Assembly: GCA_013694625.1 (NCBI GenBank)
Contig: JACDCD010000205.1
Location: 1 to 46,819, forward strand
Length of the DNA: 46,819 bases
Direction: 5' to 3'
Source of the DNA: Actinomycetota bacterium
GTDB lineage: Bacteria > Actinomycetota > CADDZG01 > WHSQ01
The translations under genes and the position numbers were made by a program. This document shows, in pieces, positions 1-30,825 of the stretch; position 1 is the stretch's first letter; each line of letters begins with the position of its first letter. The notes below the pieces were generated by a model that was not told where the DNA came from, made no database searches, and saw only the letters and a program-made list of their open reading frames with translations.

Positions 1-30
1 TCTGCTCTGTTTTCAGGACGGGGGGCGAGT

Positions 31-1669: not shown

Positions 1670-1826
1670 GGCGGAGGCCATCTCTGCGGTCCTTGCGTTG
1701 CTTTCCGGAAGGCAGATAGAGGCCGGTCACTACGTATGTGCCGGGGATGCGGTATTATTAGACTGCGGTTAGAGGCGTGCGCAACGGACGAGCCGCCTGA
1801 TCGTTCCCTTGGGGAGGGTTTTATCG

Positions 1827-2723: not shown

Positions 2724-2725
2724 AC

Positions 2726-6006: not shown

Positions 6007-6060
6007 TCTCTACGTGCAGGATCACCCGTTAACCGCGAGGCGCCGGCGCCACTCGGGGGA

Positions 6061-7617: not shown

Positions 7618-7632
7618 GGCGGCTGGTCGTTC

Positions 7633-10264: not shown

Positions 10265-10302
10265 CTCGACGTCTCCCGCCGCGCCGGGATCAGCCCGCCC
10301 CG

Positions 10303-13655: not shown

Positions 13656-13657
13656 GA

Positions 13658-14524: not shown

Positions 14525-15540
14525 AACAGAACACCCTCGATCTCTGTCTCTTTGAGGAAGTCGTGCATCTCGATCAGACTTCTGTACCAATCCACGGTAA
14601 TGGTCCTCGGGTCGTCGGCGTCGAGCTGGTTACTCTGCAGAGCCTCGTAGACCTCGCGCGCCCCGTCGGTCGGATCGTAGTTTGTTCGATAGCCGAGTAC
14701 CCGCTCGATCTTGGCGAAGGAGATCCGGTAGGAGCGATGGTCCGTGGATCCGTACCATTCGTACTCGAATGGGAGCCCCACAGCATCGGCTATGGACCGC
14801 GCCAGCGGCATCACCTGGTAGTTCTGAGCGTCCGAGCCGACGTTGAATATCTCTCCGTTGACCTGATCCGCCGGGGCTTCGAGCATGGCCAGCATCGCCC
14901 TGCAGGTGTCCTTCACGTGAACGAAGGGCCTCCATTGCAGTCCATCGCGAAGCAGCGGCAGGGAACCGTTCTTGAACAGCCCCCGGGTCATACCGTTGAT
15001 GGCAAGGTCAAAGCGCATTCTCCGGGACAAGCCGTAAACGGTCGCTTGTCTGAGGACCACGACGCAGTAATCACCGCTCGCCAGGGCCAGGGTGTCTCCT
15101 TCGGCCGCGAGGTTGGCCTTTGCGTACGTCGTCAGTGGGTTGACCGGTGAGGTCTCATCCAGAACGTCGTCGTGGAAACCGTAGATGCTGCAGGAAGAAG
15201 GGAGGATGTAGCGTTGGACCCCCTGATTCCGGGCGAGACGGGCAACGCGGGCTCTCCCTTGATGGTTTACGGCCCAGGTTTTCTCCTCGTCGAGTTCCCC
15301 GGCCGGGTCGTTCGACAACGCCGCCAAGTCGATGACGGCAAAGACGTCGTTCAACAGAGCCTCGTCCATCCAACGGATGTCGGTCCGGACGACCTCGAGC
15401 GATTTGCTCTCCGGCGGAAGGGCTTCGCGTCCGAAGAAGAACCGATCGACGGCGAGCACCCGATATCCGGCCTCAATCAGTGTGTCGGTGAGGACCGAGC
15501 CGATGTAACCCCCAGCCCCTGTGACTACGACTGTTTTCAT
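14521..15540 (-). CDS. NAD-dependent epimerase/dehydratase (extended SDR)
   Basis: An extended short-chain dehydrogenase acting on a nucleotide sugar. The Rossmann motif VTGAGGYIGS is at residues 6-15. The catalytic Ser and YxxxK appear as SSCSIYG (about 112-118) and TYAKAN (about 134-139), and the substrate-side motif RPFVHVKD is near residue 210. It has 339 residues. ATG 15540 overlaps the rfbC stop as ATGA. It occupies the slot where rfbB is often found, but the sequence does not look like canonical RmlB, so I do not call it a dTDP-glucose 4,6-dehydratase. A 4-epimerase, 4-ketoreductase or related enzyme making a second sugar is possible. It is part of the coupled minus-strand operon. Confidence 0.85.
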   Translation of the reverse strand: MKTVVVTGAGGYIGSVLTDTLIEAGYRVLAVDRFFFGREALPPESKSLEVVRTDIRWMDEALLNDVFAVIDLAALSNDPAGELDEEKTWAVNHQGRARVARLARNQGVQRYILPSSCSIYGFHDDVLDETSPVNPLTTYAKANLAAEGDTLALASGDYCVVVLRQATVYGLSRRMRFDLAINGMTRGLFKNGSLPLLRDGLQWRPFVHVKDTCRAMLAMLEAPADQVNGEIFNVGSDAQNYQVMPLARSIADAVGLPFEYEWYGSTDHRSYRISFAKIERVLGYRTNYDPTDGAREVYEALQSNQLDADDPRTITVDWYRSLIEMHDFLKETEIEGVLL

Positions 15541-16109
15541 GCCTGGCCTTCCGTTCCCCAGATGAATCCGTTGTCGGCGTCCGTCAGCTTTGGGAGATCC
15601 TTGTCCTTCTGCGACAACAGCGGTTCGGCCATCGGCAGTTCGAGCCCTATGGCAGGATCGCTCCATAAAATGCCGCGATCGTGTTGAGGGGAGTACTCGT
15701 TGTCAACTTTGTAGACGACGTCGGCATCGTCGCTGAGAGAGCAAAAGCCGTGGGCGAATCCGGCTGGAACGAACAGCAGCCTGTGATTCTTATGGGACAG
15801 GGTGGCTGTGACGTACTGGCCGAAGGTGGGCGATCCCTTGCGGATGTCTACAGCGACATCCAGAATCTCACCTCTGATCGCCTGAACCAGCTTTCCCTGC
15901 GCCATCGGGGGGTTCTGGTAATGCAGTCCCCGGAAGACCCCTCGGGTGGAATGTGAGTAGTTGTCCTGAACGAATGGCCCAGGGATCCCGGCTTCCGAGA
16001 ATGCCGAACGTTGATAGGTTTCCATGAAGAATCCCCGCTCGTCGTCAAAAGCACGCGCCTCGATCAAGACGACTGCAGGTATCTCAAGCGGTCGAAACTG
16101 GAACGGCAT
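15537..16109 (-). CDS. rfbC: dTDP-4-dehydrorhamnose 3,5-epimerase
   Basis: Epimerises C3 and C5 of dTDP-4-dehydro-6-deoxyglucose in rhamnose synthesis. It is a cupin of 190 residues, the normal length for RmlC. The signature RGLHYQNPP (about 60-68) carries the catalytic His, and VPAGFAHGF together with YKVDNEYSP contain the second His and the catalytic Tyr. The N-terminal ERGFFMETY segment is also characteristic. ATG 16109 has GGGAG upstream and overlaps the end of the LhgO-like gene by 26 bases. The next gene begins within its stop codon. Confidence 0.95.
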   Translation of the reverse strand: MPFQFRPLEIPAVVLIEARAFDDERGFFMETYQRSAFSEAGIPGPFVQDNYSHSTRGVFRGLHYQNPPMAQGKLVQAIRGEILDVAVDIRKGSPTFGQYVTATLSHKNHRLLFVPAGFAHGFCSLSDDADVVYKVDNEYSPQHDRGILWSDPAIGLELPMAEPLLSQKDKDLPKLTDADNGFIWGTEGQA

Positions 16110-17340
16110 TCGAGAGCTCCCTTCCTTCGGTTACGGTTTTGACAATTGTTTTTGCAAAGGACATGGAACAGGTGAAGGCGGGGGAAACGGCATTGAGGAC
16201 GTGCAGAGCGTCCTCATCCTGATGCGTTACGAAATCCATGACGAGTTGTCTGGTGGGCCAATGGACGAGCTGTGGTCTTATGCCTACCTTCGGTGTCCTG
16301 CCGAGGTCTTTCATCTCCAAGCTCGGGATAAGCTTGCGAGCTTCCTGGAAAAGAACTCTCTTGACATACTTCCTGGGCTCTGTCAGAGCTGCATCTCGAA
16401 AGGCTGCATTACTCATGAGCAGGACGCCTTCGCGCCCGATGATCTGAGGCGTCTCCCGTGACCAGCCCTCCCACATGCGGTAGTTCTCACGACCCGCTGC
16501 TGGGATCGCGGTGGGACCGACGTAGACGGCCCCGTCGGCGCTGCGGCTGAAGTGGACACCCAGGAAGGGATTGCGCAGATCCGGCACCGGATAGATGCTG
16601 CCCCTGACGAGAAAACTCCGAGACGGCGGCAGTTTCCTGTACGTGCCCTTGAACGGCAGGATCTTGTAGTCGTGCGCCACACCAAAACGGTGCGCGATCG
16701 AGTCCGCGTGTGCACCCGCGGCATTGATCAGGAACTCGTAGGAAAACGAGCCCCTTGTGGTCGAGACCTGTCGACGGCCCAGCGGGCCGTGGACGGTGGT
16801 GGAGCACAGGATCTTGACCCGACCGGAGCCCAGCAACTCTCTTTCCAGCGAATGGAGGATCTCGAGCGGCTTGATTGCTGCGGTGTCCGGCGAGTAGAGA
16901 GCTCGCCTGAAAGTTGCGGCGTTCGGTTCGATGGACTTAAGTTCCTCGGCGTCCACATAACGGGCCCTGGCGCCGCAGGCGTCGGCCCGCGCCTTCAGCT
17001 CGTCGAGTCGTTCCTCTTCGGTCGCATCCTTCGCGACGATCACCTTGCCGGTTTCATGGAGTGTCAAGGAATTGCTCCGGCAGAAGTCCTTCATGAGTCT
17101 GTTGCCTTCGGAGCAGTACTGCGCCTTCAAGCTATCGGGGGAATAGTAGAGTCCCGCATGGAGCACGCCACTGTTGCGACCGCTTGCATGCGCCCCGAGG
17201 CCCGGCTCTTTTTCGAGGATCACTACGCCGTCTGCGCCGCGCTGTACCAACTCACGTGCGATCGTCAAGCCGGTGATCCCCGCACCGACAATCAAGTATT
17301 GGCAAGTTTGAAACACGGCCCCCCTAACCCCGAAAACCAT
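16084..17340 (-). CDS. lhgO: L-2-hydroxyglutarate oxidase-like FAD oxidoreductase
   Basis: A DAO-family flavoenzyme of about 418 residues that probably oxidises L-2-hydroxyglutarate or a similar 2-hydroxy acid to the keto acid, passing electrons to quinone or oxygen at the membrane. The dinucleotide-binding motif LIVGAGITGLT is close to the N-terminus, followed by EKEPGLGAHASGRNSGVLHAG, the segment typical of LhgO. The C-terminal region has VGIRPQLV and the glycine-poor end seen in this family. ATG 17340 has GGAG about 6 bases upstream; GTG 17316 is an equally possible start 8 codons later. It is the first gene of the minus-strand operon leading into rfbC. A hydroxyglutarate oxidase in a rhamnose operon is unexpected, so another 2-hydroxy-acid substrate is possible. 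Confidence 0.75.
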   Translation of the reverse strand: MVFGVRGAVFQTCQYLIVGAGITGLTIARELVQRGADGVVILEKEPGLGAHASGRNSGVLHAGLYYSPDSLKAQYCSEGNRLMKDFCRSNSLTLHETGKVIVAKDATEEERLDELKARADACGARARYVDAEELKSIEPNAATFRRALYSPDTAAIKPLEILHSLERELLGSGRVKILCSTTVHGPLGRRQVSTTRGSFSYEFLINAAGAHADSIAHRFGVAHDYKILPFKGTYRKLPPSRSFLVRGSIYPVPDLRNPFLGVHFSRSADGAVYVGPTAIPAAGRENYRMWEGWSRETPQIIGREGVLLMSNAAFRDAALTEPRKYVKRVLFQEARKLIPSLEMKDLGRTPKVGIRPQLVHWPTRQLVMDFVTHQDEDALHVLNAVSPAFTCSMSFAKTIVKTVTEGRELSNAVPVSTA

Positions 17341-17576
17341 CGCCCACTCCAGAGGGGGGTCTCCCCCGAATGCGCTGCGCACCTGCAGACTCCGACAATG
17401 CAACCATCCGCACCGGGACCCTTGGAGCCGCTGACCGGAGTCGGCGCTGCGGGCCAAAGCTTACATTAACTTGAAGCTTATGCACACGGAGCCGAGCGAC
17501 AAGATCAGCCGAGCCGGGCGGCAGGATGGGCCTGGGAGTGCGGTACACGACTAGCAGTGTGCGGATGTACCGTCGT

Positions 17577-17606
17577 CCGGCCGTCACCCTGGAGGGTAAC
17601 GGCCGG
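17577..17606 (-). terminator. Hairpin terminator after the secreted-protein gene
   Basis: A near-perfect inverted repeat: CCGGCCGT (17577-17584) pairs with ACGGCCGG (17599-17606), then a C-A mismatch, then ACCC pairs with GGGT around a 4-base loop. It lies 28 bases beyond the stop of the minus-strand gene ending at 17635 and upstream of lhgO. There is no clear T-tract, so termination would rest on the GC-rich stem, as is common in actinobacteria. Confidence 0.5.
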
Positions 17607-17634
17607 CCGGTGGCGTCGGACTAGGAGATGAGAG

Positions 17635-19062
17635 TCACGGAGGGCATGCGCCGGTTGCGCCTCTGCAGTTGAACTGGATGGAGCCGTGCGTCAGCCCGTT
17701 TGTCGGGTCGTAAGCACCCTTCACGAATTCGAAGCTGGTCAGCGGCACCACAGCGAGAGCGTTCTCTCCGATGACGTTGCCGTCCGGGAAGCTGAAGCTG
17801 TTGTTCTCGGCGAAGATAATGTTGAAGTACTTGGCACTTCCTCCATCCACCACTAGACAACCGTAGTCCTGAAGCCCGTGAAGTACGGCCTTGACCTCAG
17901 GAGAAGTCCTGACGGCTTCAATGTCGACACTCCGCTTGATCCGGATAACGACGCCCTCTGGTACCGGCTCGGTGGTCCTGCTGCCGGCATCCCCTCCGGA
18001 GAGTGGCCACGAGAACGGCTGGCCATGGACATCTGGCACGATCGGAGCTGAGCATTGCATACGCATCCCTACCGAGGATGTGGGTGCGCCGTTTTGCCAG
18101 AGCTCATCTCGCAGAACCGCCTTGCGGGCAGAACCCGCTCCGCGATGTCCCGTGTTTCCGGCGGCGCCCCCGACCACGTTGGAGGCCAAACCGTTGCCGT
18201 CCACGCGGTAGGCATCCTCTACGGATGCCAGGCAGCCGTTGGTCATTCCATTTACCGTACCCAAAGCCCAGTTGGTCGCAGGATCGATGATCCCTCCCCG
18301 GCCACCACTGTCGGTGTTGAATCCTGCGGGGACGTGATACGAGTAGCCGCCCGTGGTACATGCTCGATCTGTGGATTTCGCTACAGCCGTGTCGTGCGCA
18401 TAGTAAATATGGACGCCGTTGAGGGCAACCCGCCTCAACATGTCATTGATCCAGACGCTCGAGCTCGGGTCGACCGGGGCGGGACCAGACCTGTCCAGCT
18501 TGGTCATGTAGTAGCCCCGAGGGTCCGAGAACACGGGCGTGTAGGTGGTGCCGGTCCCGGGTGGCGGGGCCGATGCGGCCACCTCGAACGTACGGCCGAC
18601 CACCGTCGAGCTGGTTCCGTCCGAAACCCTGGCGTAAAGCGTGTGAGAGCCGCTCTCCAAACCGGTAAGGGCGAACTCGCAGGAGGCCTTGGCCGTGCTC
18701 AGCCCGGTGCAGGTCGCAGAAGAGTAGTTGGCGGAATCGACCTTGGTTGAGACCCTGCGAACGGCCCGATTGTCAGACGCAGCAATGTGGGCCGTGTGGG
18801 GGAGTGAGAGGCTTTTCCCCGGCGTCGCAGGATCGGTGATGGAGGCGACGGGACTGGGGTTACCTCCCCGGGTGGGCGCCCCGCCAGAGGTGGCGAGCGG
18901 GGTCTCGGCCGCCCACACCGGCAAGCTCATCAGACCAACTCCCAGGCTCAGCAAGCCTGTTAGCAGGAACCGGCCCGGTGTCACACGGCCGGGTCGCTCA
19001 AGAGCTGCAGGACGAGCCTTCCGCGCTTGACGCGGCCATCGAACTCCGGTATGTCTTGCCAC
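17635..19062 (-). CDS. Secreted protein with Ig-like module and unknown C-terminal domain
   Basis: An exported protein of 475 residues, probably extracellular or wall-associated. A long basic N-region is followed by a hydrophobic core (FLLTGLLSLGVGLMSL) and a likely signal peptidase site after VWAAE, near residue 50. Residues of about 75-145 look like a bacterial Ig-like/Big domain with a TCTG...CEF cysteine pair and a SGSHTLYARVSDG strand pattern. The remaining 300 residues contain an early ...HIYYAHDTAV segment and a late RIKRSVDIE...YGCLVVDGGS segment. From memory the latter resembles a C-terminal module of secreted actinobacterial proteins of unknown function. GTG 19062 is chosen because GGAGGTGG lies 5 bases upstream. 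It is transcribed alone between two polysaccharide blocks, and a surface role linked to the glycan is only inference. Confidence 0.75.
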   Translation of the reverse strand: MARHTGVRWPRQARKARPAALERPGRVTPGRFLLTGLLSLGVGLMSLPVWAAETPLATSGGAPTRGGNPSPVASITDPATPGKSLSLPHTAHIAASDNRAVRRVSTKVDSANYSSATCTGLSTAKASCEFALTGLESGSHTLYARVSDGTSSTVVGRTFEVAASAPPPGTGTTYTPVFSDPRGYYMTKLDRSGPAPVDPSSSVWINDMLRRVALNGVHIYYAHDTAVAKSTDRACTTGGYSYHVPAGFNTDSGGRGGIIDPATNWALGTVNGMTNGCLASVEDAYRVDGNGLASNVVGGAAGNTGHRGAGSARKAVLRDELWQNGAPTSSVGMRMQCSAPIVPDVHGQPFSWPLSGGDAGSRTTEPVPEGVVIRIKRSVDIEAVRTSPEVKAVLHGLQDYGCLVVDGGSAKYFNIIFAENNSFSFPDGNVIGENALAVVPLTSFEFVKGAYDPTNGLTHGSIQFNCRGATGACPP

Positions 19063-19539
19063 GAGAACCACCTCCAAGTTGGGGTGCGCGTCGTGGACGG
19101 AAGACCACCTCTGCTCGAGGGGAAGCTGGGAACCGGGCCCTTTCTGATTTAATGGGCCGTGGGGGAAAGCTGGTCCCTGGCACTGTTTCCGTCGGCGAAC
19201 CGCATCTCTGTATGTTCTTGGGTTATCGACCCAATATTTGGAAGACTTGAGAGCGCCCCGAGACGGAGCTGCAGGTGGCTGAGAGGCCAAACTCTCCAGG
19301 GAGCCCGCGTACGCGCTACTAAAAGCGAAAAGGCAACATGATTAGGGTTGTCGCTGATCTTGGAGTCGAAGAGGTGGCGCTGGGTCGGCGGGAGATTGGC
19401 TATGGTTGGTTATGGGGCGGTTCCCGGGAAAGCCGGATAATCATGAGGGGGCGGGTCTTCTGTTTGGCGTAGATCGCCGGATCTATTTCGGCCTATTCAA
19501 CGTCGTCATGTCCGTGATGGGACATGGGGTAATCGTGTC
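19063..19539. other. 477-base divergent non-coding region with inverted repeats
   Basis: This gap separates two divergently transcribed genes and must hold both promoters. I see a perfect 6-base inverted repeat TTGGGT/ACCCAA with a 5-base centre (19218-19234), followed directly by CCAA-TAT-TTGG (19231-19241). There is also a hairpin GGCT-GAGAG...CTCTC...AGCC (19277-19305) and the palindrome CGCGTACGCG (19306-19315). No convincing -35/-10 pair, tRNA or known riboswitch core was found. Confidence 0.5.
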
Positions 19540-21066
19540 GTGAGCTCTCCCCCCACGCTCGCCAAGCGCGTGCTCATGCTCGGAATCGACGGTCTGTCCA
19601 CCTCTTTCATGCGGGCGCCCGTCGTGGCGGACAACATGCCCATCCTGAGCTCTCTCTTCGAGGCATCGGCCACCGGCCCTCTGTGGTCCACCTTTCCTCC
19701 CTACACGGGGCCTGCTTGGACCAGCATCACCACGGGGGTCGGACCCGGGAGGCACGGGGTCTTCGGCTTCACCGATCATGCCGGCCGGCCCTGCTCCGAC
19801 ACCACTGTGAGCGTTCCCAGGCTGTGGGACTACGTGGGTTCTGCGGGGGGCCGATCGATCGTCGTCAACGTGCCCATGACGCATCCCCCGAGACCAATCG
19901 ATGGAGTGCTGGTGTCCGGGATGCCGGCGCCGAGCGCAGAGATCACGTTTCCCCCTCGGGTCGCCTCCGAGTTGCAGTCGCGTGAGTACATTGTCGATAT
20001 TGCAGTCGCCGAAGGGGGCCGCGAGGGCGCCAGCACGCTCGACTCGCTGGCCGAGATGACCAGGCGTCGAGGCGAGATGGCGGCATGGCTCGCCAGGTCC
20101 CAGCCGTGGGACCTGTATGCGATCGTGTTCGTCCTACCCGATCGCCTCGGCCACCCATGGTGGAAGCAGCTCGTGCCCGGTGATGGGCTCTACGAGAGCC
20201 GCCGGGCGGAACGGGTTCGGCGTGGGGCGCAGGGCGCCCTCGTTGCCCTGGACGAGGCAATCGGCGCACTGTTGGAGACTCTTCCGCAAGACACCGCGAT
20301 CGTCCTCTGCTCGGACCATGGTTTCGGGCCCCTCCATGCAGATGTCTTCTTTGATCTCGTCCTTGCGGAGGCGGGCCTCGCCACGGCGGGCCCTCAGACT
20401 GGATTGCACCGGGCGCTCGCACGAGCCGGACGCTCGAGACCTGCTCAATTTGCCCCTAGGGCGCTTCACCGGTGGGCTCGGACGAAGGCAGCAGGGCCGA
20501 TCGAGCCACAGGAGAGACGGGCCTGGACCACTCCACCTTACGAGAGCGGGGTCCGTTTGGCCGACTCGTCGGACGAGGAGTTGCGCCAGAGGGTTACGAA
20601 GCTGCTCACAGATCTGAGGACGCCGGATGGCAGACAGGCGGTGAAGTCCGTCACCCGGCGGGGAGACCTCTACGGGGGTTCGCGCACAGACGAGGCCGCC
20701 GACTTGCTGTGTGAGATGGTCGACGAGACGGTTGGGCTCCACAACGGCATGCATGCGACAACGCCGTGGGTCTCCCGGGATCACCTCCCCTGGGGGACGC
20801 ACGCATCGGAGGGGGTCGTAGCAATAAGTGGCGTCCCCGCTTCCCGAAGACTCGAGGGAATGGCCCCCGACATCGCTCCGACCGTGTTGGGCCTATTGGG
20901 TCTCGAGGCGAAGGGGCTCGACGGACGTTCGCTCGTGGCCCTGGAGCCGGATCTCACCCCCGTTGCGGCGGGGAGTCACGCCCCACCTGAGGGTGAGCCG
21001 GCGTACACCGCAGACCAAGAGGCCGCCGTCATGGAGCAGCTCAGGAGCCTTGGCTATGTCGACTGA
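19540..21066 (+). CDS. AlkP-superfamily hydrolase, copy 6 (divergent)
   Basis: The most divergent of the six AlkP-superfamily proteins, 508 residues, about 50 shorter than the others. It keeps LGIDGLSTSF near the N-terminus, the nucleophile region TGPAWTSITTG followed by GPGRHG, CSDHGFG, and GTHASEG for the last metal His, so it is probably active. The tail is YTADQEAA...QLRSLGYVD. The start is GTG 19540 with only a weak G-rich site upstream; GTG 19570 is an alternative. No signal peptide is visible. It is the first gene of the third block, and its end overlaps the start of the Wzy-like gene by 11 bases, which ties it to polymer assembly. The substrate is unknown. Confidence 0.82.
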   Translation: MSSPPTLAKRVLMLGIDGLSTSFMRAPVVADNMPILSSLFEASATGPLWSTFPPYTGPAWTSITTGVGPGRHGVFGFTDHAGRPCSDTTVSVPRLWDYVGSAGGRSIVVNVPMTHPPRPIDGVLVSGMPAPSAEITFPPRVASELQSREYIVDIAVAEGGREGASTLDSLAEMTRRRGEMAAWLARSQPWDLYAIVFVLPDRLGHPWWKQLVPGDGLYESRRAERVRRGAQGALVALDEAIGALLETLPQDTAIVLCSDHGFGPLHADVFFDLVLAEAGLATAGPQTGLHRALARAGRSRPAQFAPRALHRWARTKAAGPIEPQERRAWTTPPYESGVRLADSSDEELRQRVTKLLTDLRTPDGRQAVKSVTRRGDLYGGSRTDEAADLLCEMVDETVGLHNGMHATTPWVSRDHLPWGTHASEGVVAISGVPASRRLEGMAPDIAPTVLGLLGLEAKGLDGRSLVALEPDLTPVAAGSHAPPEGEPAYTADQEAAVMEQLRSLGYVD

Positions 21067-22426
21067 TACCGCCGATGTCTCCAGGGTCACATTTCTGCTG
21101 CCATTGCTGGGAGCAGCAATCGCAGCAGCATTAGCAACCGCCGCAGCAACCACCCTGTCTCCGGTAAGCGTTGGGGCGTGGTTGTTCGGGGTGTTGGCTC
21201 TGCTGCTCGTCAGGTCGAACACCGAGTTGGCGTTGGTGGGACTTGCCGCCTCTCGGGCCACCCTCGAGGGGGCGCACGTGCTGCCCTTGGCAAACGTCGG
21301 GGGCAACGGCCTCAGCCCAGGCGACATCTTGAGCCTCGCGTTTCTTGCGGGAGCGGCGTGGCACTTGATAGACGAGGCCCGGTCGGGAACGCGTATTTGG
21401 CGCCTGCCCACGGTCTTGCCGGTTCTGCTTTTTCTGGGGGTAGCCGTGTTCAGCCTCAGCTACTCGCCGGTACCGAGTCTGGGCTTGAGGGACATCCTGA
21501 AGTTCATGGCCGCATACTGCGCCTACCTGATCGTCGTGGTTGGCCGCCCGGAGCCGCGTCGCTTGCGCATGTTGCTGGGTGCCTTGCTCATCGGATCGGT
21601 GATGCCCATCAGCTACGGCCTGTACGAGGCCTTCTTCTCGAAGGGCGAAGTCAACGTGTTCTACGGATGGGCTCGCGCTCAGTCCGTGTTCGACAGCCCC
21701 AACACCTATGGCTTCTATCTCGTCACCATCGTGGCCGCTGCCTGGGCCCTTCGCCAGCAGGTCACCGGCCGAGCCCGCGTTCTGACCACGGTCATGGGCG
21801 TGGCGGCTTTTTCGTCGGTTCTGCTGACCCTGAGCAGGAACTCCATGGCCGCCTTGGCCATTCTGGTGCTGTCCATAGGCTGGAATCATCGGTCGGTGCT
21901 GATCGTCGCCGCCCTCGCGACGGTGGGAGTGATTGCAGCAGCGCCTCAGGTGCTTGCAAGGGGCCTCGAATTCTTCAACTCCCAGAGCGACCAGGGCAAC
22001 TCTTTGTTGGGCCGGCTCGAGATCTGGCGAAGCGGGATCGCTTTTTGGCGCGGACAACCCCTATTGGGGCGTGGCTGGGGCGCCACGAGCACCTTCGTCA
22101 CCAAGAACGCCCACAATGACTATCTGCGCAGCCTTATCGAGGCCGGGATCGTCGGCCTCGGTTGCTTCATTGCGATGATGTCGTCGCTCCTGCGCCTTGG
22201 ACGAAATGCAGCCAGGGGCCGCGACGATGGTCCTCGCGCTCTGCTCGGGCTGTCTATCGGGTACGCGCTGGTGAGTCTGGCCAGCAACAACTTCGGCAAG
22301 GGCGCGTTCCAGATCCACTTTTGGCTCTTGGCGGGAGTTCTCTGCGTCTGGGCCGACGCCATTCCCGCTCGCGGCTTCGCTGCAAGGGGAGTCGTGACTG
22401 ACGCTCCGGACAAGTTCGCCCGATGA
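21056..22426 (+). CDS. O-antigen ligase/Wzy-like polysaccharide polymerase
   Basis: A multi-spanning membrane protein (about 10-12 hydrophobic segments in 456 residues) of the O-antigen ligase/polymerase family, expected to polymerise or ligate undecaprenyl-linked repeats on the outer face of the membrane. The family's large loop is recognisable near residues 310-350: GRLEIWRSGIAFWRGQPLLG, then GRGWGATS and AHNDYLRSLIEAG, with the conserved Arg and His-Asn. ATG 21056 has AGGAG 8 bases upstream, inside the end of copy 6; the longer reading back to 20828 is not supported. The following gene overlaps its stop by 4 bases. Together with wzz and wzx it gives a complete Wzx/Wzy-type assembly set. 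Confidence 0.87.
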   Translation: MSTDTADVSRVTFLLPLLGAAIAAALATAAATTLSPVSVGAWLFGVLALLLVRSNTELALVGLAASRATLEGAHVLPLANVGGNGLSPGDILSLAFLAGAAWHLIDEARSGTRIWRLPTVLPVLLFLGVAVFSLSYSPVPSLGLRDILKFMAAYCAYLIVVVGRPEPRRLRMLLGALLIGSVMPISYGLYEAFFSKGEVNVFYGWARAQSVFDSPNTYGFYLVTIVAAAWALRQQVTGRARVLTTVMGVAAFSSVLLTLSRNSMAALAILVLSIGWNHRSVLIVAALATVGVIAAAPQVLARGLEFFNSQSDQGNSLLGRLEIWRSGIAFWRGQPLLGRGWGATSTFVTKNAHNDYLRSLIEAGIVGLGCFIAMMSSLLRLGRNAARGRDDGPRALLGLSIGYALVSLASNNFGKGAFQIHFWLLAGVLCVWADAIPARGFAARGVVTDAPDKFAR

Positions 22427-24531
22427 GCCGCCCCCTGCTCCTGGTCTCGACGCTGGATGGTTCCGGACCAGGTCGCGTCATGGCGACTCTGGCCCAGCAA
22501 CTCGTTTGCATGGGTCAGGAGCCTGTCCTTGCCTCCACCCACGGAGTCGAAACCTCTTCGCTCATTCGGGAAGCGAGCGAATCGGGTGTGCCCGTCGAAC
22601 ATCTTCGTATGCACGGCATGGTCGATCCCGCAGGCGCCGCAAGAATGGCCGGTCTCCTCAGGAGGTGGCGGCCCAGCGTAGTCCATACCCGAACCATCAG
22701 GGCCGATTTGATCGGCCGCATAGCGGCCGGCTATGGCGTGCCGGTGATCAACAACGTCGTGAATCTCTATCCCGACGACTGCCTAGTGCGGCTCGGCCCG
22801 GCGGCGGGGCGGGGCGCGATGTTGCTTGCCCGCTCGACCAGGGGGGCGGTGCGGCTCTTCGTGGCAAACGCCGAGGCAGTGGCGTCCAACACCGGCGCCG
22901 CCTTCGGTGTGCCACCCGAACGCATCAGAGTTGTCTATGACGGCCTGGACCTCGGCGCTTGGGCCGGTGGAACGCCCACAGACCTCAGCGGATACGGGAT
23001 ATCGCCGGAGCACACAGTTTGCCTCACAGTTGCACGGCTCCACGCGCAGAAAGGTCTGGAGGATCTCGTGGAGGCGGCGCGCTCGATCCACGACCAACGC
23101 TCAGAAGTCGTATTCGTCGTGGCCGGTGGTGGGCCCGAGCGCGCGAATCTGACCCGTTTGATTCGTTCGGCGGGCCTCGAGGATGTGGTCTTTTTGGTGG
23201 GTGAACGCGACGACATCTCTAATCTGCTCGCCCGCTCGCGGCTATTTGTGCTTCCGTCCCTGTTCGAAGGGCTCCCCTCCGCCATCATCGAGGCAATGGG
23301 GGCCGGCCGGGCGGTGGTAGCCACCCGGGTCGCGGGGGTCCCGGAGCTCGTCGTGGAGAACGAAACCGGTTGGATGGTTCCGCCAGCTTCTCCACAGCTC
23401 CTGGCGAGTGCGATCCTCCGGGCACTCAGCGCAGATCTCGAATCGGTTGGCGAGGTGGGTCGCAATCGCGCTCTCCGCTACTTCTCGGCGGCTGCCATGG
23501 GCAGGGATTTTGAGGAGCTCTACGGCGAGGTGGGAAACCATCGGAGGACCGGCCCCGTATCTGCAGTTGTGAAGCCGACCCTGAAGGGGGCTACGCCCAC
23601 CACGCCACGAACTGCCCCTTCGACATTTCTGATCACCACGCGCAATCGGCCGCAGGAGCTTCGTCGTCTCATCGAATCGATCCTCGGACAGTCCGTGCTT
23701 CCGCAAGAGATCGTCTTGGTCGATGCCAGTGATGTTCCGGACGAGGGAGGTCTCAGAGAGCGCATCGAAAGCGCTGGAGTCGATTTCGTGTTCCTGACCT
23801 CCAAGCCGGGCCGGACACATCAGCTGAACATTGGGATCGACGCCTCCAGCGGCGACATCGTATTAATCAACGACGATGACGTGGTGCTGGAGCAGCGCTA
23901 TCACGAGGCGATGCTGTCCGTTTTCGAGCAGGGCGGCGCATCGGTTGGCGGCGTGCAGGGCACAATTATCGGCGACACGCTGAAGCCTCTTCCCATGCGA
24001 GCGTTTCGTGCCCTGTTCCTGCTGAGCCGTCACACCAAAGATGCGCCGGGAAGATTATTGCCGTCCGGCTACTACACCACACCGGTCCGTCCCACAAGGC
24101 TACGTGAGGCCGAGGCTTTGCGGCTCTGCGGGCTCGCCTTCCGGCGAGGGGTTTTTGCAGATCACCGTTTCGATGAAACGCTGGAAGGCTACGCGCTCAA
24201 GGAAGACATCGACTTATCCTACAGGGTGAGCCGCCGGTACAAGCTCTTCGTCACTCCCGATGCTCGGTTCCACCACCTCAAATCTCCAGGCGCTCGGATC
24301 AGCGTGAGACAGAAGTCGAGAATGCACGTCATCAACAACTATCGCATCCACCGGAGGAACCTCAAGCACACGCCGGCGAGCGGCATCGCCTTCGCTTGGG
24401 CAGTCCTCGGACGGGTGTTGCAGGAGCTTGGCAGAGCTGTAGCCGAGATGAACCCAGGTTATATCCTGGGAACGCTGCAAGGACTGTGGGACATCGCAGG
24501 GTCGACGAAAGAAGCGTTCAGAGCTCGATGA
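22423..24531 (+). CDS. Fused GT4-GT2 glycosyltransferase
   Basis: One 702-residue polypeptide with two glycosyltransferase modules. Residues 1 to about 370 are a GT-B fold GT4 enzyme: VARLHAQKGLEDLVEA is the donor-domain start, and FEGLPSAIIEAMGAGR (near 280) contains the retaining-type E-x7-E motif. After a Thr/Pro/Ala-rich linker (about 375-398), residues of about 399-640 form a GT-A fold GT2 enzyme with FLITTRNRPQELRRLIESI and the metal-binding cluster INDDDVVL near 482-488. The GYALKEDIDLSYRV segment near 585-600 provides the acidic catalytic loop. The two modules probably add successive sugars to the repeat unit. ATG overlaps the wzy stop (ATGA), and the sulfotransferase start overlaps its own stop in the same way. 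Confidence 0.88.
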   Translation: MSRPLLLVSTLDGSGPGRVMATLAQQLVCMGQEPVLASTHGVETSSLIREASESGVPVEHLRMHGMVDPAGAARMAGLLRRWRPSVVHTRTIRADLIGRIAAGYGVPVINNVVNLYPDDCLVRLGPAAGRGAMLLARSTRGAVRLFVANAEAVASNTGAAFGVPPERIRVVYDGLDLGAWAGGTPTDLSGYGISPEHTVCLTVARLHAQKGLEDLVEAARSIHDQRSEVVFVVAGGGPERANLTRLIRSAGLEDVVFLVGERDDISNLLARSRLFVLPSLFEGLPSAIIEAMGAGRAVVATRVAGVPELVVENETGWMVPPASPQLLASAILRALSADLESVGEVGRNRALRYFSAAAMGRDFEELYGEVGNHRRTGPVSAVVKPTLKGATPTTPRTAPSTFLITTRNRPQELRRLIESILGQSVLPQEIVLVDASDVPDEGGLRERIESAGVDFVFLTSKPGRTHQLNIGIDASSGDIVLINDDDVVLEQRYHEAMLSVFEQGGASVGGVQGTIIGDTLKPLPMRAFRALFLLSRHTKDAPGRLLPSGYYTTPVRPTRLREAEALRLCGLAFRRGVFADHRFDETLEGYALKEDIDLSYRVSRRYKLFVTPDARFHHLKSPGARISVRQKSRMHVINNYRIHRRNLKHTPASGIAFAWAVLGRVLQELGRAVAEMNPGYILGTLQGLWDIAGSTKEAFRAR

Positions 24532-25436
24532 CGTTGCCGAACCTCCTTATCGCAGGCGTGCCCAAGGGGGGTACGACCTCGTTGTTCCGTTACCTCGAGC
24601 AACACCCCGACATCTGCCCTGCGGACGTCAAGGAAATCGGGTTCTTCTCCTCCTTGCGGAGGGAAGGCGCGAGCTTGCCGAGCACCGAGTCCTACCGTCA
24701 GCACTTCGCCCACTGGAATGGTGAACGGTATTCGATGGAGGCCACTCCGGCCTATTGCTATGGCGGCCTGCGGATGCTTCGAGGGATAAAGGCAGTCCTC
24801 GACCGGCCCAGGATCATGATCGTTCTCCGCAATCCCGTGGACCGGCTGTGGTCGGCGTATACGTTTCAGAGAACGAAGGGCCACCTGCCGGCAGTCTCCT
24901 CGTTCGAAGAGTACGTTTCCATCTGCATCGATAAGCGGCGCAAAGGCGAGAAGCAAGGGCCTTACTTCGGAGGCGTGACCATAGGGTTTTACGGTGACTA
25001 CCTTCAGGACTGGTTCGATCTGTTCGGGCAAGACGTCAAGATTCTCTTTGCAGACGACCTCTTCGCAGATCCTCAGGCGGTCGTCACCGAACTATGCCGC
25101 TGGCTGTCCATCGATGAGAACGCCGTTGCGGACTTCGACTACGACGTCCGAAACAAGACTACCCATGCCCGCAATGTCGCGATCAGCCGGGCAGTGCGGA
25201 CGATCAAGAGAACCGGCGACGGTTTGCTGAAGCGCGCTCCGAGCCTCGAGCGCACCCTCCGCCAGACTTACCTGAGGCTGAATACCGGAGACCTCGAGGA
25301 GAAACTGTCAACCGAGACGAGGCGGCGGCTCGAGGACATGTATCTGCTTTCCAACGTCACGGTTGCGCAGCTTCTGGGTGCCAGAGGCTACAAGCGCTTG
25401 CCCTCGTGGCTTACGCTTGAGCCGGTGGGTTCATAG
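24528..25436 (+). CDS. PAPS-dependent sulfotransferase, copy 2
   Basis: A 302-residue carbohydrate-type sulfotransferase. The 5'-phosphosulfate loop is VPKGGTTSLFRYL at residues 10-22, and the 3'-phosphate site is IVLRNPVDRLWSAYTFQRTK near 98-117. ATG 24528 overlaps the preceding stop as ATGA. It aligns along its length with copy 1 on the other strand: both have HP(D/E)ICPAD, EATP(A/S)YCYGG, GFY(G/D)DYL and a GY-x-x-LPSWL end. Its place after the fused glycosyltransferase suggests that the glycan repeat is the acceptor. No PAPS-forming genes are in the window, so activated sulfate must come from elsewhere on the chromosome. Confidence 0.9.
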   Translation: MTLPNLLIAGVPKGGTTSLFRYLEQHPDICPADVKEIGFFSSLRREGASLPSTESYRQHFAHWNGERYSMEATPAYCYGGLRMLRGIKAVLDRPRIMIVLRNPVDRLWSAYTFQRTKGHLPAVSSFEEYVSICIDKRRKGEKQGPYFGGVTIGFYGDYLQDWFDLFGQDVKILFADDLFADPQAVVTELCRWLSIDENAVADFDYDVRNKTTHARNVAISRAVRTIKRTGDGLLKRAPSLERTLRQTYLRLNTGDLEEKLSTETRRRLEDMYLLSNVTVAQLLGARGYKRLPSWLTLEPVGS

Positions 25437-25467
25437 TGGGAGCACGCGCCGGCCGCGGCGCCGAATC

Positions 25468-26346
25468 GTGCAGGTCAACAGTCTGAAGCTTTTCGGACCT
25501 CGTCTGCTTCTGGCAGGCTCGCTCGTCCTGGTTGTTGTCGGAGCGGCACTCTTTCTCCGGACCGACGACAAGGTGGAGACGGCGACGCCGAGGCAGATTC
25601 GCGGCTACGAGTTTGTTGGACGGGGGCAGTTGATGGGCGCCGTTCGGAGGGAAAATGAGGCGCTTATCATCAGAGGGGAGGTCAGCACCGCGAGGTTCGA
25701 GGGGCTGAGGCGGGCGAATCCCGGCCTGCGTTTTGTCAACTACGAACAGGCCTTTGCTCTCAACGTGTCCGAGGCCGGCTATGCGCGCGACAGGGGTTGG
25801 CTGGCGACAACTTGCGACGGCAAGGAAATTCATCCTGCGAACATCCCTAACGTGACTCTGCTCGACGCCACGATCCGCACGTCGCTGGTGTGGCGCACCG
25901 ACCTCATAGCATCAGAAACGCGCCGGGGGTACGATCTCAACTACCTCGACACTCTGCGCTCGTTTTTCCCCCCGAACTTCTACGATGAGCTCCCTTGCGA
26001 CGTGTCGGACATTGAATGGCTCGATGCTTCGCTTGAGACGGTGGAGCTCGTGCGAAGTAAGTCCGGTAAGCCCGTGATCGTCAACGGCTCGGGGCTGGGG
26101 TCAGGCCGAAGCTATCTCGAGCACAAGGAGGAAGCAGATCGACTCGTTGCTTCGGCAGACGGCGTCCAGATAGAGCACTTTCTTCGCAGCCCGAACGAGG
26201 AAGACGAGGACATCGACTTAGTCGAAGCGATCAACGCGGCCGGCAAGGACGCATACGTGAAGTGCGCTCGATCGAGAGAAGCGTGCCGGTCCGCGTTCGC
26301 GAAGGCAGGGAGCCTTCAGCGCAACTACCTGCACATTCGCCGTTAG
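25468..26346 (+). CDS. Membrane-anchored protein, possibly glycosidase-like TIM barrel
   Basis: I do not recognise this 292-residue protein with certainty. A basic N-terminus and one hydrophobic segment (about residues 9-28) suggest a signal anchor or signal peptide, placing the rest outside the cell. The body has an alternating strand/helix pattern (ALIIRGEVS, LRFVNYEQAF, GWLATTCDG, VTLLDATIRTSLVW, YDLNYLD, KPVIVNGSG, DGVQIEHFLR, DAYVKCAR) that suggests a TIM barrel. The pattern resembles putative glycoside hydrolases of the GHL15 kind, with acidic residues at strand ends (YLD, IEH). The start is uncertain: GTG 25468 has no good ribosome-binding site, and GTG 25429, inside the sulfotransferase gene, is an alternative. 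It is the last gene of the third block and ends 21 bases from the convergent kinase gene. A role in trimming the exported glycan is conceivable. Confidence 0.5.
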   Translation: MQVNSLKLFGPRLLLAGSLVLVVVGAALFLRTDDKVETATPRQIRGYEFVGRGQLMGAVRRENEALIIRGEVSTARFEGLRRANPGLRFVNYEQAFALNVSEAGYARDRGWLATTCDGKEIHPANIPNVTLLDATIRTSLVWRTDLIASETRRGYDLNYLDTLRSFFPPNFYDELPCDVSDIEWLDASLETVELVRSKSGKPVIVNGSGLGSGRSYLEHKEEADRLVASADGVQIEHFLRSPNEEDEDIDLVEAINAAGKDAYVKCARSREACRSAFAKAGSLQRNYLHIRR

Positions 26347-26367
26347 ACATCAAGGATGCTGTTGCAT

Positions 26368-27846
26368 CTACCTGTCCGGCTTGCCGAAGGAGCCCAAGGG
26401 GATGCGAACGTTGTTGCCGACCCAGCGCGTGTTGTCGGCGAGCTGAGGAGAACGCATCAGGTTGCCCGACACCTGGGCCGCCCAGGAAGCGATCCCGACC
26501 GCGTCGAGCAGATCGGTGCCGGGCTCCAGTTCGAAACCCGCCCAATACTCCGCGGTCACCGACTTGAAGTGGATCGAGCGCCACGGACGCTCGATCCAGA
26601 TCTGGCCAAGAGGGCGTTTTTTCCTCAACCACAGCTCCGCCACCATGAGATACATGACATCGGTTCCGGGAATGCCCGCGGGATGCCACGCGTCCCAATC
26701 GACCACGCCGGATAGCCCTCCCCGATCTACGAGAAGGTTTCCGGCCCACATGTCACCGTGCGTCATCACCCCTGGAAGCGATGCGCACGCTTCGTGCAGG
26801 TAGGCCTTGATTCCTGCGAGCGCGGAGGCGTCCTGCGGAACCTGCTCGGCAATGATGTCGATAGCAGTCCCGACCGAGGTGGCCTCATGGCGACGGGGCA
26901 GGCGCAAGCAGAAGGCGATCGCCTCCGCTATCACTCGAGGGGTGAGCTGTTTGGGCCGATGGCCCTTCAGCAGTGACTCGGTGCTCCAGGACGCACCACA
27001 GATCTCGCCCGAAGCCATCAAGTGAGGGACCGGACCCACCTCGGACGCCGCCAGATGCTCGAGAGCCGCTGCCGCGTGAACCACAGGGAGCGCCCCCATC
27101 GAGCCGCCCGCCCGCAGGAGGACGCTGTCGCCGCCGGAGTCCTCGATGAGCGCCAGGGCGGTGCCGCCGGACCCAAGACGAAGCCCGGCTACGGTCTCCT
27201 TCGCTCCTGCGGCGTTTGCTGCTGCGTCAACCACCCTCAGCTCGCCGGTGCGGGCCGTCATCTCGACCAACACCCCCTGTTGGAGGGCGGCCCTCAACTC
27301 ACTCCTGACCGAGCTGCCGCGCAACCGCGGCGGCGGCAGCCGGTGGATGCCCCGGATCCTGAAAGGGGTGGGAGCATGGCGTCTCAGCTTGAGCAGTTGG
27401 GCCTCACGTCGCACCGCGCTCAGAAGGACGGCCGAAGGTCTGGCCGGCGAGATGGCAGCGGCACCCCATAGGAAGACATCCGTCCCGCGTGGCAACGCCG
27501 ACCGTTCGAGTCTCCACCGCTCATCGGTCTCGACCAACACCCCATGGCGCCCCGGTTCTGCGGGCATCAACAGAGAGGCCAACGCCTCGAGTGTCACCCT
27601 CCGGCCTGAGTCCATCTGTCTCACGGCGCCCTCAATTTCTTGCCACCGACGAACCCACCGGTCTCGTTGAAAGATGCGCCCAAGAGGGCGAGCCGCACTT
27701 GCAGGGAGCTTTCTCCGGCGAGGACACAAAGGGACCGGGTAGTCACTCGATGATGGGGCGCCACCGTCTTCACCCTCGGCGAATACGGGCGTCGCTCTTT
27801 TCCCCGGGAAGACCCCAATACTCCAGTGTACGCACGGTGAAACCAT
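26368..27846 (-). CDS. APH-fold phosphotransferase with extra N-terminal region
   Basis: A 492-residue protein whose C-terminal half has the aminoglycoside/choline kinase fold. The Brenner-type catalytic motif is MTHGDMWAGNLL (near residue 358-369) and the metal-binding Asp is in GVVDWDAWHPAG about 15 residues on. A glycine-rich ATP loop (LRLGSGGTALALIED) is near 222-236. The first 220 residues do not match a domain I recognise and are rich in Arg, Leu and Ala. The kinase could phosphorylate a sugar, choline-like or lipid substrate; antibiotic resistance is not implied. It is convergent with the surface locus and divergent from the pseudokinase gene. The ATG at 27846 has no strong ribosome-binding site, so the N-terminus may be shorter. 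Confidence 0.7.
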   Translation of the reverse strand: MVSPCVHWSIGVFPGKRATPVFAEGEDGGAPSSSDYPVPLCPRRRKLPASAARPLGRIFQRDRWVRRWQEIEGAVRQMDSGRRVTLEALASLLMPAEPGRHGVLVETDERWRLERSALPRGTDVFLWGAAAISPARPSAVLLSAVRREAQLLKLRRHAPTPFRIRGIHRLPPPRLRGSSVRSELRAALQQGVLVEMTARTGELRVVDAAANAAGAKETVAGLRLGSGGTALALIEDSGGDSVLLRAGGSMGALPVVHAAAALEHLAASEVGPVPHLMASGEICGASWSTESLLKGHRPKQLTPRVIAEAIAFCLRLPRRHEATSVGTAIDIIAEQVPQDASALAGIKAYLHEACASLPGVMTHGDMWAGNLLVDRGGLSGVVDWDAWHPAGIPGTDVMYLMVAELWLRKKRPLGQIWIERPWRSIHFKSVTAEYWAGFELEPGTDLLDAVGIASWAAQVSGNLMRSPQLADNTRWVGNNVRIPLGSFGKPDR

Positions 27847-28054
27847 ATCGACTGTGGGATGAGAGGTTGCATGCTCAAAAGGGGATCGTTTGGCATCTGC
27901 ATGCTACAGCTCGCTCACCGGCGGCACGAGGAGAACGGCCCTATGACAGGCGACCACTTACAATCACTTGGAATGAGACGACCCTAGGCTCTGTCCGAGG
28001 CGCTTAGGATGGTTGGCTGCACGGGTCGACTGTGTACTACACAGGGGGCCAGAA

Positions 28055-29530
28055 TTGCTCATCGATCGACGCCGGCGAGTCGGCGGCTATACCCTGCGAG
28101 AGCAGATCCGCGCTGGATCGAATGGCGCTCTCTTCAGGTCCGGCAACCCCTTCGGGCGACTTGCCGTGACCCTCGTGGCCGACGACCTGGTACCGGCGGA
28201 GGCGTTCCTGCGGAGGGCGGAAGCCGTCGCTGCGTTGCGGCACAAGAGCATAGCCCCGCTGTACGACTTCGGTTCGGACGATGGCTGCTTGTACCTGGTC
28301 ACGAAATACGTGGACGGTGAGACGCTCGCCGGCCTTTTGGCGGCGGAGGGGCGTCTGCCACCGGTGGAGGCGGCAGAGATCGCATCAGACATACTCGACG
28401 GACTCGCCTTCGCCCACAAGAAGGGGCTCGTTCACGGAGGGTTGATGCCCTCGAGCGTCCTGGTCTCTGCGTGGTCCAGGGCCATGATCACAGACTTGGC
28501 ACTCCCTTCGGCGCTGGGCCTGGGGGACTCCGCAGGCAAGGTAACCGAGGAATCACAGGGTGTGGCTGCCGGCCCCCACGCGTCCATCTACGCGCCGCCC
28601 GAGCAGCTTCGAGGCGGTGAGCCGGGCGCCCCCTCGGATATCTATTCCGTAGGGGCGCTGCTCTTCGAAATGCTCACCGGGAACAAGCCGGTGCGTTCCG
28701 GAGGTGGGGAACCGGGCGGGACCGTCATGGAGTGGCCCCCGAGCCGGATCGAGGCGGTGGCTCCCCCACTCGAAGCGAGCGTGCTGAAGGCACTCGCCAC
28801 CGAGCCCGGCGAACGATTCTCCAGCGCAGCCGAGATGCGCGCTGCCTTGTCCGGTTCCTCCCGGCGCAGGAGCGCCCTGAATGAGGCACTCGAAGTCCCT
28901 GGCGGTGCCGGAGTCCCGGATGCCGCCCGGCCTGTCCCGGAGGCGGGACCGAAGACCGCTCCCCGACATCCCCTGTCGCCTCCGGCCGCCTCCGAGATGG
29001 ATGGTCCCGTGGGCCCGGAGGCCGGGACGAAAGCGGCCACTCGCTCGACGCCTCCTCGGCGGGATGGAAGGGCTCCGGCATCAAGGCGGGCGTCTCGCAG
29101 CCGCAGGAGGCAGTACAAGCACGAGGCCCGAAGGCCGGCAAGGGGACCCATCTATTTCGGCCGGTGGCGCCCCGTGGTGCTCGCAGCCGCGGTCGGGGTA
29201 AGCGCGATCCTGGCGCTCTTCGCGGTCTTCGCCCTTTCGACTGCTGTGTTTTTCGAAGACGCCAATTCCGGTGGCCAACGAGCCTCGACCGAGGCTCCAA
29301 CAGCCGCGCAGCAGGGGCGCTCGAGCACTCCATATCTCTCCGGCAAGACCGTCGAGGCGGCAGCCGCAGACCTCGAGCAAGTGGGGCTGAGACTGGGGCA
29401 AGTCACCTCGGCGCCAAGCGACTCGGTTGCTCCAGACCACATCCTCGAGCAGAGCCCTGCCGGCGGTACCCGGATTCCGCGGAACGCCACTGTGGATCTC
29501 GTGGTCGCCACGGAGCCCTCGAAGGGCTAG
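28055..29530 (+). CDS. Membrane pseudokinase with one PASTA domain
   Basis: This has the architecture of a PknB-type Ser/Thr kinase: a cytoplasmic kinase fold (about residues 10-265), a Pro/Arg/Ala-rich linker, one membrane segment (about 373-399) and a single extracellular PASTA domain (about 425-486, ending ILEQSPAGG...VDLVVA). The catalytic residues are missing. The HRDLKPxN loop reads HGGLMPSS (from residue 127), so Arg, the catalytic Asp, Lys and Asn are all changed. The DFG motif reads TDLALP, and the VAIK lysine is absent from LAVTLV. Structural motifs YAPPEQ and SDIYSVGALLFEMLTG are kept. It is therefore probably a non-catalytic sensor or scaffold binding peptidoglycan. TTG 28055 is preferred because AGGGGG lies 6 bases upstream; TTG 28013 is an alternative. 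Confidence 0.85.
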   Translation: MLIDRRRRVGGYTLREQIRAGSNGALFRSGNPFGRLAVTLVADDLVPAEAFLRRAEAVAALRHKSIAPLYDFGSDDGCLYLVTKYVDGETLAGLLAAEGRLPPVEAAEIASDILDGLAFAHKKGLVHGGLMPSSVLVSAWSRAMITDLALPSALGLGDSAGKVTEESQGVAAGPHASIYAPPEQLRGGEPGAPSDIYSVGALLFEMLTGNKPVRSGGGEPGGTVMEWPPSRIEAVAPPLEASVLKALATEPGERFSSAAEMRAALSGSSRRRSALNEALEVPGGAGVPDAARPVPEAGPKTAPRHPLSPPAASEMDGPVGPEAGTKAATRSTPPRRDGRAPASRRASRSRRRQYKHEARRPARGPIYFGRWRPVVLAAAVGVSAILALFAVFALSTAVFFEDANSGGQRASTEAPTAAQQGRSSTPYLSGKTVEAAAADLEQVGLRLGQVTSAPSDSVAPDHILEQSPAGGTRIPRNATVDLVVATEPSKG

Positions 29531-29607
29531 GCACTCTAGTGGCTCGAGCCGCCGGTTCGCCGCCCTGAGAAGACCAGGGGCGTTGCCTGAATCTCGCTCG
29601 CATTAAG

Positions 29608-30825
29608 ATGCCGAGCATGACCAGCTCAGACGGCCTCCGGCTCTTCACGTCCGAATCTGTGACCGAGGGCCACCCCGACAAGATGGCCGACCAGATCTCC
29701 GACGCAGTGCTCGACGAGATCCTGGCGCGCGATCCCGAAGCCCGGGTCGCGTGTGAGACGCTCATCACCCTCGGCCTGGTGGTCGTCGCAGGGGAAATCA
29801 CTACGAAGGCCTATGTCGACATCCCCTCGGTGGTACGGCGGACGGCAACCGACATCGGTTACACGAGCTCGCGTATCGGCTTCGACGGCGCCACCTGTGG
29901 GGTGTCTGTGGTCATCCAGGAGCAATCGCCCGATATCTCGGTGGGCGTCGAGCATGCTCTGGAGGAACGGCAGGGGGAGGCGCTGGACACGACGCTCGAT
30001 TCTCAGGGGGCCGGCGACCAGGGAATGATGTTCGGCTACGCCTGCAACGAGAACGAAGATCTCATGCCGATGCCTATCTGGCTCGCCCACCGTTATGCAC
30101 ACCGGCTGGCCGAGGTCCGGAAGTCGGGCGTGCTGCCCTATCTGCGCCCCGACGGCAAGGTCCAGGTAACCGTGGGCTACAGGGACGACAAGCCCGTCAC
30201 CCTCGAGACCGTTGTGTGCTCGACCCAGCACCAGCCGAATGTGGACATCGAAACCCTCTTGAAGCCCGATCTGGTCCAGCATGTGATCGAGCCGATGACC
30301 CCCTCCGGACTCGATGCCACCGACGTCAAGATCCTGGTGAATCCGACCGGCGTGTTCGAGATCGGCGGCCCGCGCGCCGACACGGGACTCACCGGACGCA
30401 AGATCATCGTCGACACCTACGGGGGAATGGCGCGCAACGGTGGAGGTGCCTTCTCCGGGAAGGATCCGACGAAAGTCGACCGCTCGGCGGCCTATGCCGC
30501 CCGCCATGTGGCCAAGAACGTGGTCGCCGCCGGTCTGGCCGAGCGCTTCGAGCTCCAGGTTGCGTACGCCATAGGGGTCGCGCACCCGGTGTCCCTGACG
30601 GTCGAGACCTTCGATACCGAGACCGTTGCCCCGGAGATGATAAGCAAGGCGATCGACCAGTGCTTCGACCTTCGTCCGGCGGCAATCATCGAGCGGTTGG
30701 ACCTTCGGAGGCCGATATACCAGAGCACCGCCTCCTACGGCCACTTTGGACGCTCCAACGCAGACTTCACGTGGGAGCAGACCGAGTTCGCCGACGAGCT
30801 TCGGCGCCTGTGTGGGGCTCCCTGA
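29608..30825 (+). CDS. metK: S-adenosylmethionine synthetase
   Basis: Makes S-adenosylmethionine from methionine and ATP in the cytoplasm. The N-terminus carries [20 protein letters not shown], and both family signatures are visible: [11 protein letters not shown] (about 131-141) and [16 protein letters not shown] (about 272-287), with the P-loop-like Lys. Its 405 residues are normal. ATG 29608 is taken; an in-frame ATG three codons later is possible, and neither has a clear ribosome-binding site. The 77-base gap to the upstream pseudokinase gene holds no recognisable SAM riboswitch. priA follows with an overlap. Confidence 0.97.

Follow-up and report, generated by a model that had tools for sequence, protein, structure and literature searches.

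The window, by which we mean the whole 46,819-nucleotide stretch of DNA analyzed here, carries a gene whose 491-residue product resembles a PASTA kinase with its catalytic residues replaced. We consider it about an even chance (probability roughly 0.5) that this product is a non-catalytic, membrane-anchored scaffold of envelope signaling, related to the PknB-type PASTA kinases and encoded at the edge of a genomic island. The gene and its parts are as follows.

28055..29530, + strand: pseudokinase gene, 491 aa, with kinase-like domain, linker, transmembrane (TM) helix and one PASTA domain (open reading frame, Pfam, NCBIfam, Foldseek)
28160..28171, + strand: beta3 strand LAVT, where Thr39 replaces the ATP-binding Lys (sequence; strand at residues 36-41 of the AlphaFold (AF2) model)
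28214..28216, + strand: Arg54 replacing the alphaC Glu (alignment of 61 domains)
28433..28465, + strand: HGGLMPSSVLV replacing HRDxKPxNILx (sequence and alignment)
28493..28501, + strand: DLA replacing DFG, with the Asp (Asp147) kept and Phe and Gly lost (sequence and alignment)
28592..28606, + strand: APPEQ, the retained APE motif (sequence and alignment)
28694..28747, + strand: alphaG region turned into a Gly/Pro-rich segment (alignment; AF2 pLDDT <50 at residues 214-224 and 228-230, with a 4-residue helix only)
29174..29254, + strand: single TM helix, approximate (hydropathy peak of 2.74 from residue 374)
29324..29515, + strand: single PASTA domain of the PknB PASTA2 type (profile and single-sequence matches)

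The frame is uninterrupted from a TTG start at 28055, which has GGGGG six bases upstream, and a second in-frame TTG lies at 28013. A kinase-like domain (about residues 9-270) is followed by a long, basic, low-complexity linker bearing Ser and Thr, a TM helix from about residue 374 and the PASTA domain at residues 424-487. Pfam recovers Pkinase at 74.8 bits (cut-off 31.7) and PASTA at 46.8 bits (cut-off 23.2), and the NCBIfam model PknB_PASTA_kin (NF033483) matches residues 46-489 at 183.4 bits, which is under its curated cut-off of 450 bits. The kinase part has the position-specific G+C of ordinary coding sequence (0.70/0.53/0.78), and third-position G+C of the gene is high, like that of its neighbors. 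A sequencing error or frameshift as the cause of the motif losses is ruled out, since the losses are spread over several separate motifs in an intact frame with ordinary coding bias.

The motif survey used a single alignment of 61 kinase domains, drawn from the window genome and its relatives, and it shows 8 of the 10 conserved catalytic or ATP-site residues to be replaced in the window protein. Its catalytic loop reads HGGLMPSS for HRDIKPSN (R to G, D to G, K to M and N to S); the change of the beta3 Lys to Thr39 was read by eye, the aligner having shifted that strand. What remains is the HRD His, the DFG Asp, the APE Glu, the alphaF Asp and the alphaH Arg. Fifty-five of the 57 active-type domains hold every listed residue, the two others being L146, which lacks only the catalytic-loop Lys, and L135, which has DLG for DFG; the four inactive domains are the window protein and three of the C157 lineage described below. 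The general mark of a bacterial Ser/Thr pseudokinase is a kinase fold lacking at least one of the beta3 Lys, HRD Asp and DFG Asp; the window protein has lost the first two and keeps the DFG Asp. An earlier note made from the sequence had described a PASTA pseudokinase in which the HRD-loop Asp, Lys and Asn, the VAIK Lys and the DFG Gly are replaced, and the alignment confirms it, while the Pfam match bears out the single PASTA domain on a non-catalytic protein; to that list we add the alphaC Glu, the alphaG segment and a generally eroded N-lobe. Lacking both an ATP anchor and a catalytic base, the protein would be very unlikely to transfer phosphate.

The losses are uneven along the domain. 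The window protein retains 2/10 catalytic columns vs. 26/43 other conserved columns (Fisher p = 0.034, with one or two beta3 columns imperfectly aligned), and the conserved non-catalytic columns kept are 7/22 in the N-lobe and 16/18 beyond alphaE, the latter despite about 3.4 changes per column on the protein's branch. The earlier statement that the loss of catalysis is specific therefore stands for the C-lobe, whose fold motifs are kept, but fails for the N-lobe, alphaG and the dimer-interface Arg, which have gone as well. The AF2 model, built from a five-row alignment, is confident across most of the kinase core and poor elsewhere, without an ordinary alphaG, and its best Foldseek match is M. 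tuberculosis PknB 6i2p (TM-score 0.72 by target). In the 61-domain alignment the activation loop is longer than that of PknB. Retention of the C-lobe, TM helix and PASTA domain would speak for a structural function of the protein in the membrane region. Among R10, L33 and D76, which we take to be the back-to-back dimer residues of M. tuberculosis PknB, only the Asp is clearly kept, and this would weaken the case for heterodimerization with PknB.

A catalytic PASTA kinase, which the earlier note had proposed to look for elsewhere in the genome, is present as the four-PASTA PknB of contig C26, together with FhaA, a second FHA protein, a PP2C phosphatase (PstP), FtsW/RodA and PbpA. These putative partners speak for a scaffold, as do the lower retention of catalytic than of other conserved columns, the kept C-lobe columns, the intact coding-biased frame, the PASTA match and the superposition of the model on PknB. 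Having lost the ATP-anchoring and phosphotransfer residues, the window protein would not phosphorylate; it would take part in envelope signaling non-enzymatically, docking with PknB, serving as its substrate or competing with it. This role would most likely fall to the long basic linker, whose Ser/Thr residues may be targets of PknB phosphorylation and be recognized by FHA proteins, much as phosphorylated MviN is read by FhaA in M. tuberculosis according to the text of a 2025 review (PMC12599244). It might in addition be tuned to the island's own surface polymer. Against a scaffold stand the loss of the alphaG surface, the lack of a sigma-70-type promoter match upstream of the gene (weak evidence) and the orphan status of the protein, so that selection on the gene itself is not measurable.

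In most relatives a single-PASTA kinase adjoins PknB (e.g., L117:1320-6054, between PbpA and PknB); no member of this group was found in the window protein's genus (L110:2661-6176, L114), and in the window genome about 100 bases separate PbpA from the PknB gene that comes next. The earlier note had also drawn an analogy with a pseudokinase domain partnering MviN, which does not carry over to this genome: its two MurJ open frames, of 574 and 594 aa, are too short to include a pseudokinase domain, and in this family the MurJ-linked kinase is separate and catalytically intact. A same-strand pair of MurJ and, after it, a transmembrane Ser/Thr kinase that is catalytically intact and lacks PASTA occurs in 13/13 relatives in which the upstream side is covered (L121, L136, L145, L143, L131, L124, L138, L152, L133, L147, L115, L126 and L128), and also at G000 C152:17301-20946; in mycobacteria, by comparison, MviN joins MurJ and a pseudokinase in one protein. 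One locus considered as a MurJ-pseudokinase fusion, L008:307-2715 (- strand, 802 aa), appears by eye to join a PAP2-like phosphatase, a kinase-like domain (HRDMRLANW) and a polytopic membrane domain instead.

The window genome holds a second PASTA pseudokinase, which is better supported as functional than the window protein.

L109:7519-9306 (G000 contig C157): four-PASTA pseudokinase of the window genome
L111:8661-10475: C157-type pseudokinase locus in a relative
L129:1-957: C157-type pseudokinase locus in a relative

The C157 protein reads VAVR at beta3, Gln for the alphaC Glu and HGALRPES in the catalytic loop, with DFG intact and four PASTA domains. Its ortholog in the sister species of the same genus has the same losses, and L129, a relative from a second genus and a fragment cut by the contig end, has worse ones, so the series is dead in two genera, while seven more orthologs, spread over six genera, are catalytic. 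The ten group in a single clade (100/100), within which the dead three cluster (96/94). When the two species of the window protein's genus are compared, dN/dS of the C157 protein is 0.19 in the kinase domain and 0.15 in the PASTA array, vs. 0.019 and 0.30 for PknB. Judged by these ratios the C157 pseudokinase is kept by selection, its kinase domain being relaxed relative to that of PknB and far from neutral. This shows that dead PASTA kinases are kept in this lineage and speaks for the scaffold reading of the window protein. The C157 and window proteins share the HGA/HGG loop and have both lost Lys, Glu, Asn and alphaG; however, the C157 type has an intact DFG, four PASTA domains and all three dimer residues (R10, L33 and D76), and is orthologous to active kinases. 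By profile scores the window protein is no closer to the C157 protein than to PknB.

In searches of 60 relatives the window protein matches PknB-type and similar kinases at about 30-42% identity, and no ortholog was found among them, 24 genomes of the class included. Its C-terminal half, used as the query for the whole phylum, has no match at E <= 1e-10 in 295 other genomes, and a peptide-pattern scan of GTDB genomes returned only six distant kinases and no ortholog. In the kinase tree its branch measures 3.4 changes per column and the grouping with PknB is unsupported (50/0); topology tests gave AU p = 0.41 for placement with the single-PASTA kinases and 0.36 for the C157 group. Kinase-domain profiles score 150 bits for single-PASTA kinases, 142-144 for PknB and 93-119 for the C157 lineage. 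The PASTA domain scores 63.6 bits with the profile of PknB PASTA2, followed by PASTA3 (38.2), PASTA1 (28.9), PASTA4 (24.9) and the single-PASTA kinases (20.1), and its nine best single-sequence matches are all PASTA2 domains of PknB-type proteins. Because this domain clearly fits PknB PASTA2, the window protein resembles a PknB-related kinase cut down to a single PASTA domain. Two other origins were rejected. A displaced single-PASTA kinase is attractive for its architecture, with the same length, one TM helix and one PASTA, but the PASTA types disagree (20 bits) and the tree gives no decision; the single-PASTA kinases themselves are catalytic. Shared ancestry with the C157 pseudokinases, to which the HGGxMP loop common to the window protein and L129 had pointed, finds no support in the profile scores (93-119 vs. 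142-150 bits), and convergence on this loop is easy because single-base changes suffice.

The orphan status of the gene bears on the main rival reading, a serious one that we regard as less likely than a scaffold: that an island-borne PASTA kinase has lost its function and is drifting, its product having no role. A gene confined to a single species, an extreme branch length, an N-lobe eroded well beyond the catalytic residues and a single remaining PASTA domain are all consistent with decay, but the 491-codon frame is intact and coding-biased, the C-lobe motifs, TM helix and PASTA are kept, and the losses are substitutions with no stops or frameshifts.

The location of the gene, at the end of a lineage-specific island, raises another possibility.

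1..29603, no strand: lineage-specific island between coaBC and metK, its leftmost ~0.1 kb on contig C39; homology with the sister species ends at 29603
26368..27846, - strand: APH-fold phosphotransferase gene, divergent from the pseudokinase gene and in the same island (Pfam APH 38.3 bits; 492 aa)
29608..30825, + strand: metK, the right-hand core gene beside the island, 95% identical to metK of the sister species

In the sister species the order runs pyrF, pyrE, gmk, coaBC directly into metK (gene names assigned by eye, coaBC excepted), metK itself being 95% identical in protein and 89% in DNA. Six of seven relatives checked for coaBC have it directly upstream of metK and the seventh (G004) about 2.7 kb upstream; the pseudokinase is absent from all metK regions fetched from relatives, several of them on short contigs. 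In the window genome, where this metK is the only copy found, coaBC lies on contig C39, the end of which matches window positions 1-127 exactly, a sequence present in these two places only. Most simply, about 29.7 kb has been inserted between coaBC and metK, the pseudokinase being the last gene of the insert. A chimeric contig is unlikely, as the island ends join coaBC and metK, which are adjacent genes in the sister species. The gene does stand next to metK in the window, as noted earlier, but at an island junction, so a conserved linkage is rejected. Downstream of metK, PriA (window 30746-32836) has a Pfam match only in the 3' DNA-binding domain and shows no Walker-type helicase motif by eye; such a motif is usually missing in actinobacterial PriA.

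The island encodes polysaccharide functions (an NTP transferase, glycosyltransferases, Wzx- and Wzy-type genes, RmlD and an epimerase), two sulfotransferases, an L-2-hydroxyglutarate-oxidase-like gene, the APH-fold gene and six type I phosphodiesterases (at 2645, 4339, 8579, 10303, 11985 and 19540), an unusual number. We find it doubtful that the pseudokinase regulates this island independently of PknB, sensing or anchoring its surface polymer together with the divergent APH-like gene. Its place as the last gene of a polysaccharide, sulfotransferase and phosphodiesterase island would fit, and the APH gene is equally restricted to the window genome, its product being unmatched at E<=1e-15 across the 23 other genomes of the class. 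However, most island genes have a G+C of 0.56-0.64, one phosphodiesterase reaching 0.67 and the APH gene 0.66, whereas the pseudokinase has 0.68, like core genes, and so may have come in separately; and no other case of a pseudokinase-APH pairing was found.

The proposal of the earlier note, a lipid II or muropeptide receptor implied by the single PASTA domain, is in our view quite improbable. One PASTA domain does lie outside the membrane, but it is of the PASTA2 type, while in M. tuberculosis PknB the ligand site has been placed in the PASTA3-4 linker and PASTA4 is required for function (PMC6428115), and PknB-like binding of lipid II by the lone domain would therefore not be expected. Finally, an atypical enzyme using the retained DFG Asp and migrated residues is almost certainly not the answer: Asp147 is kept, Glu56 stands two positions beyond the missing alphaC Glu and some pseudokinases may still bind ATP, as stated in the text of PMC12599244, but the beta3 Lys, alphaC Glu and catalytic Asp, Lys and Asn are all gone.

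Among known systems, the window protein is best compared with the PknB/StkP/PrkC kinases (NF033483), its best match in sequence and fold, with which it shares the order kinase, linker, TM and PASTA. The fold, single TM helix and PASTA of that family are present and its intact Lys, Glu, HRD Asp, Asn and DFG are absent, and there is one PASTA domain rather than three or four and no alphaG. Seven bacterial pseudokinase families (ActPs1-3, GLW, CP1, DYD and DLHK) are named in the 2025 review, in whose text PASTA appears only in the reference list and no PASTA protein figures among the seven (PMC12599244). MviN (ActPs3) of M. tuberculosis is likewise membrane-linked and has the same beta3 Lys to Thr change (VALT; PMC12599244 Table 1), but the window protein is unfused to MurJ, having only one TM helix, carries PASTA, has its catalytic loop and DFG replaced differently and shows no deletion in the activation loop. 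The mostly actinobacterial ActPs1 lacks alphaG in about 60% of members, as the window protein does, and many of its members carry a PQQ_2 domain, none being described with PASTA in the text of that review (PMC12599244). The GLW family (GLW for HRD, poly-Leu beta3) and the DYD family (beta3 Arg, DYD motif) differ from the HGG and LAVT, and from the Thr and DLA, of the window protein. Going by the descriptions in the review text, it fully matches none of the described families, and a search of titles and abstracts of openly available papers yielded no PASTA pseudokinase.

The switch from enzyme to scaffold seems to have occurred more than once in this lineage. A wider reading, which we offer tentatively as possible rather than probable, is that PASTA kinases here repeatedly became selected non-catalytic envelope receptors, a live PknB working beside dead PASTA partners of the C157 and island-borne kinds that fall outside the seven families named in the review text (PMC12599244). 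If true, this would add a tier of regulation comparable to animal and plant receptor pseudokinases. In a dead kinase that carries a PASTA ectodomain, wall sensing is uncoupled from phosphorylation, which raises the question of whether PASTA receptors can signal without chemistry. The C157-type series, with catalytic members in seven genomes (six genera) and dead ones in two genera, offers a natural before-and-after comparison.
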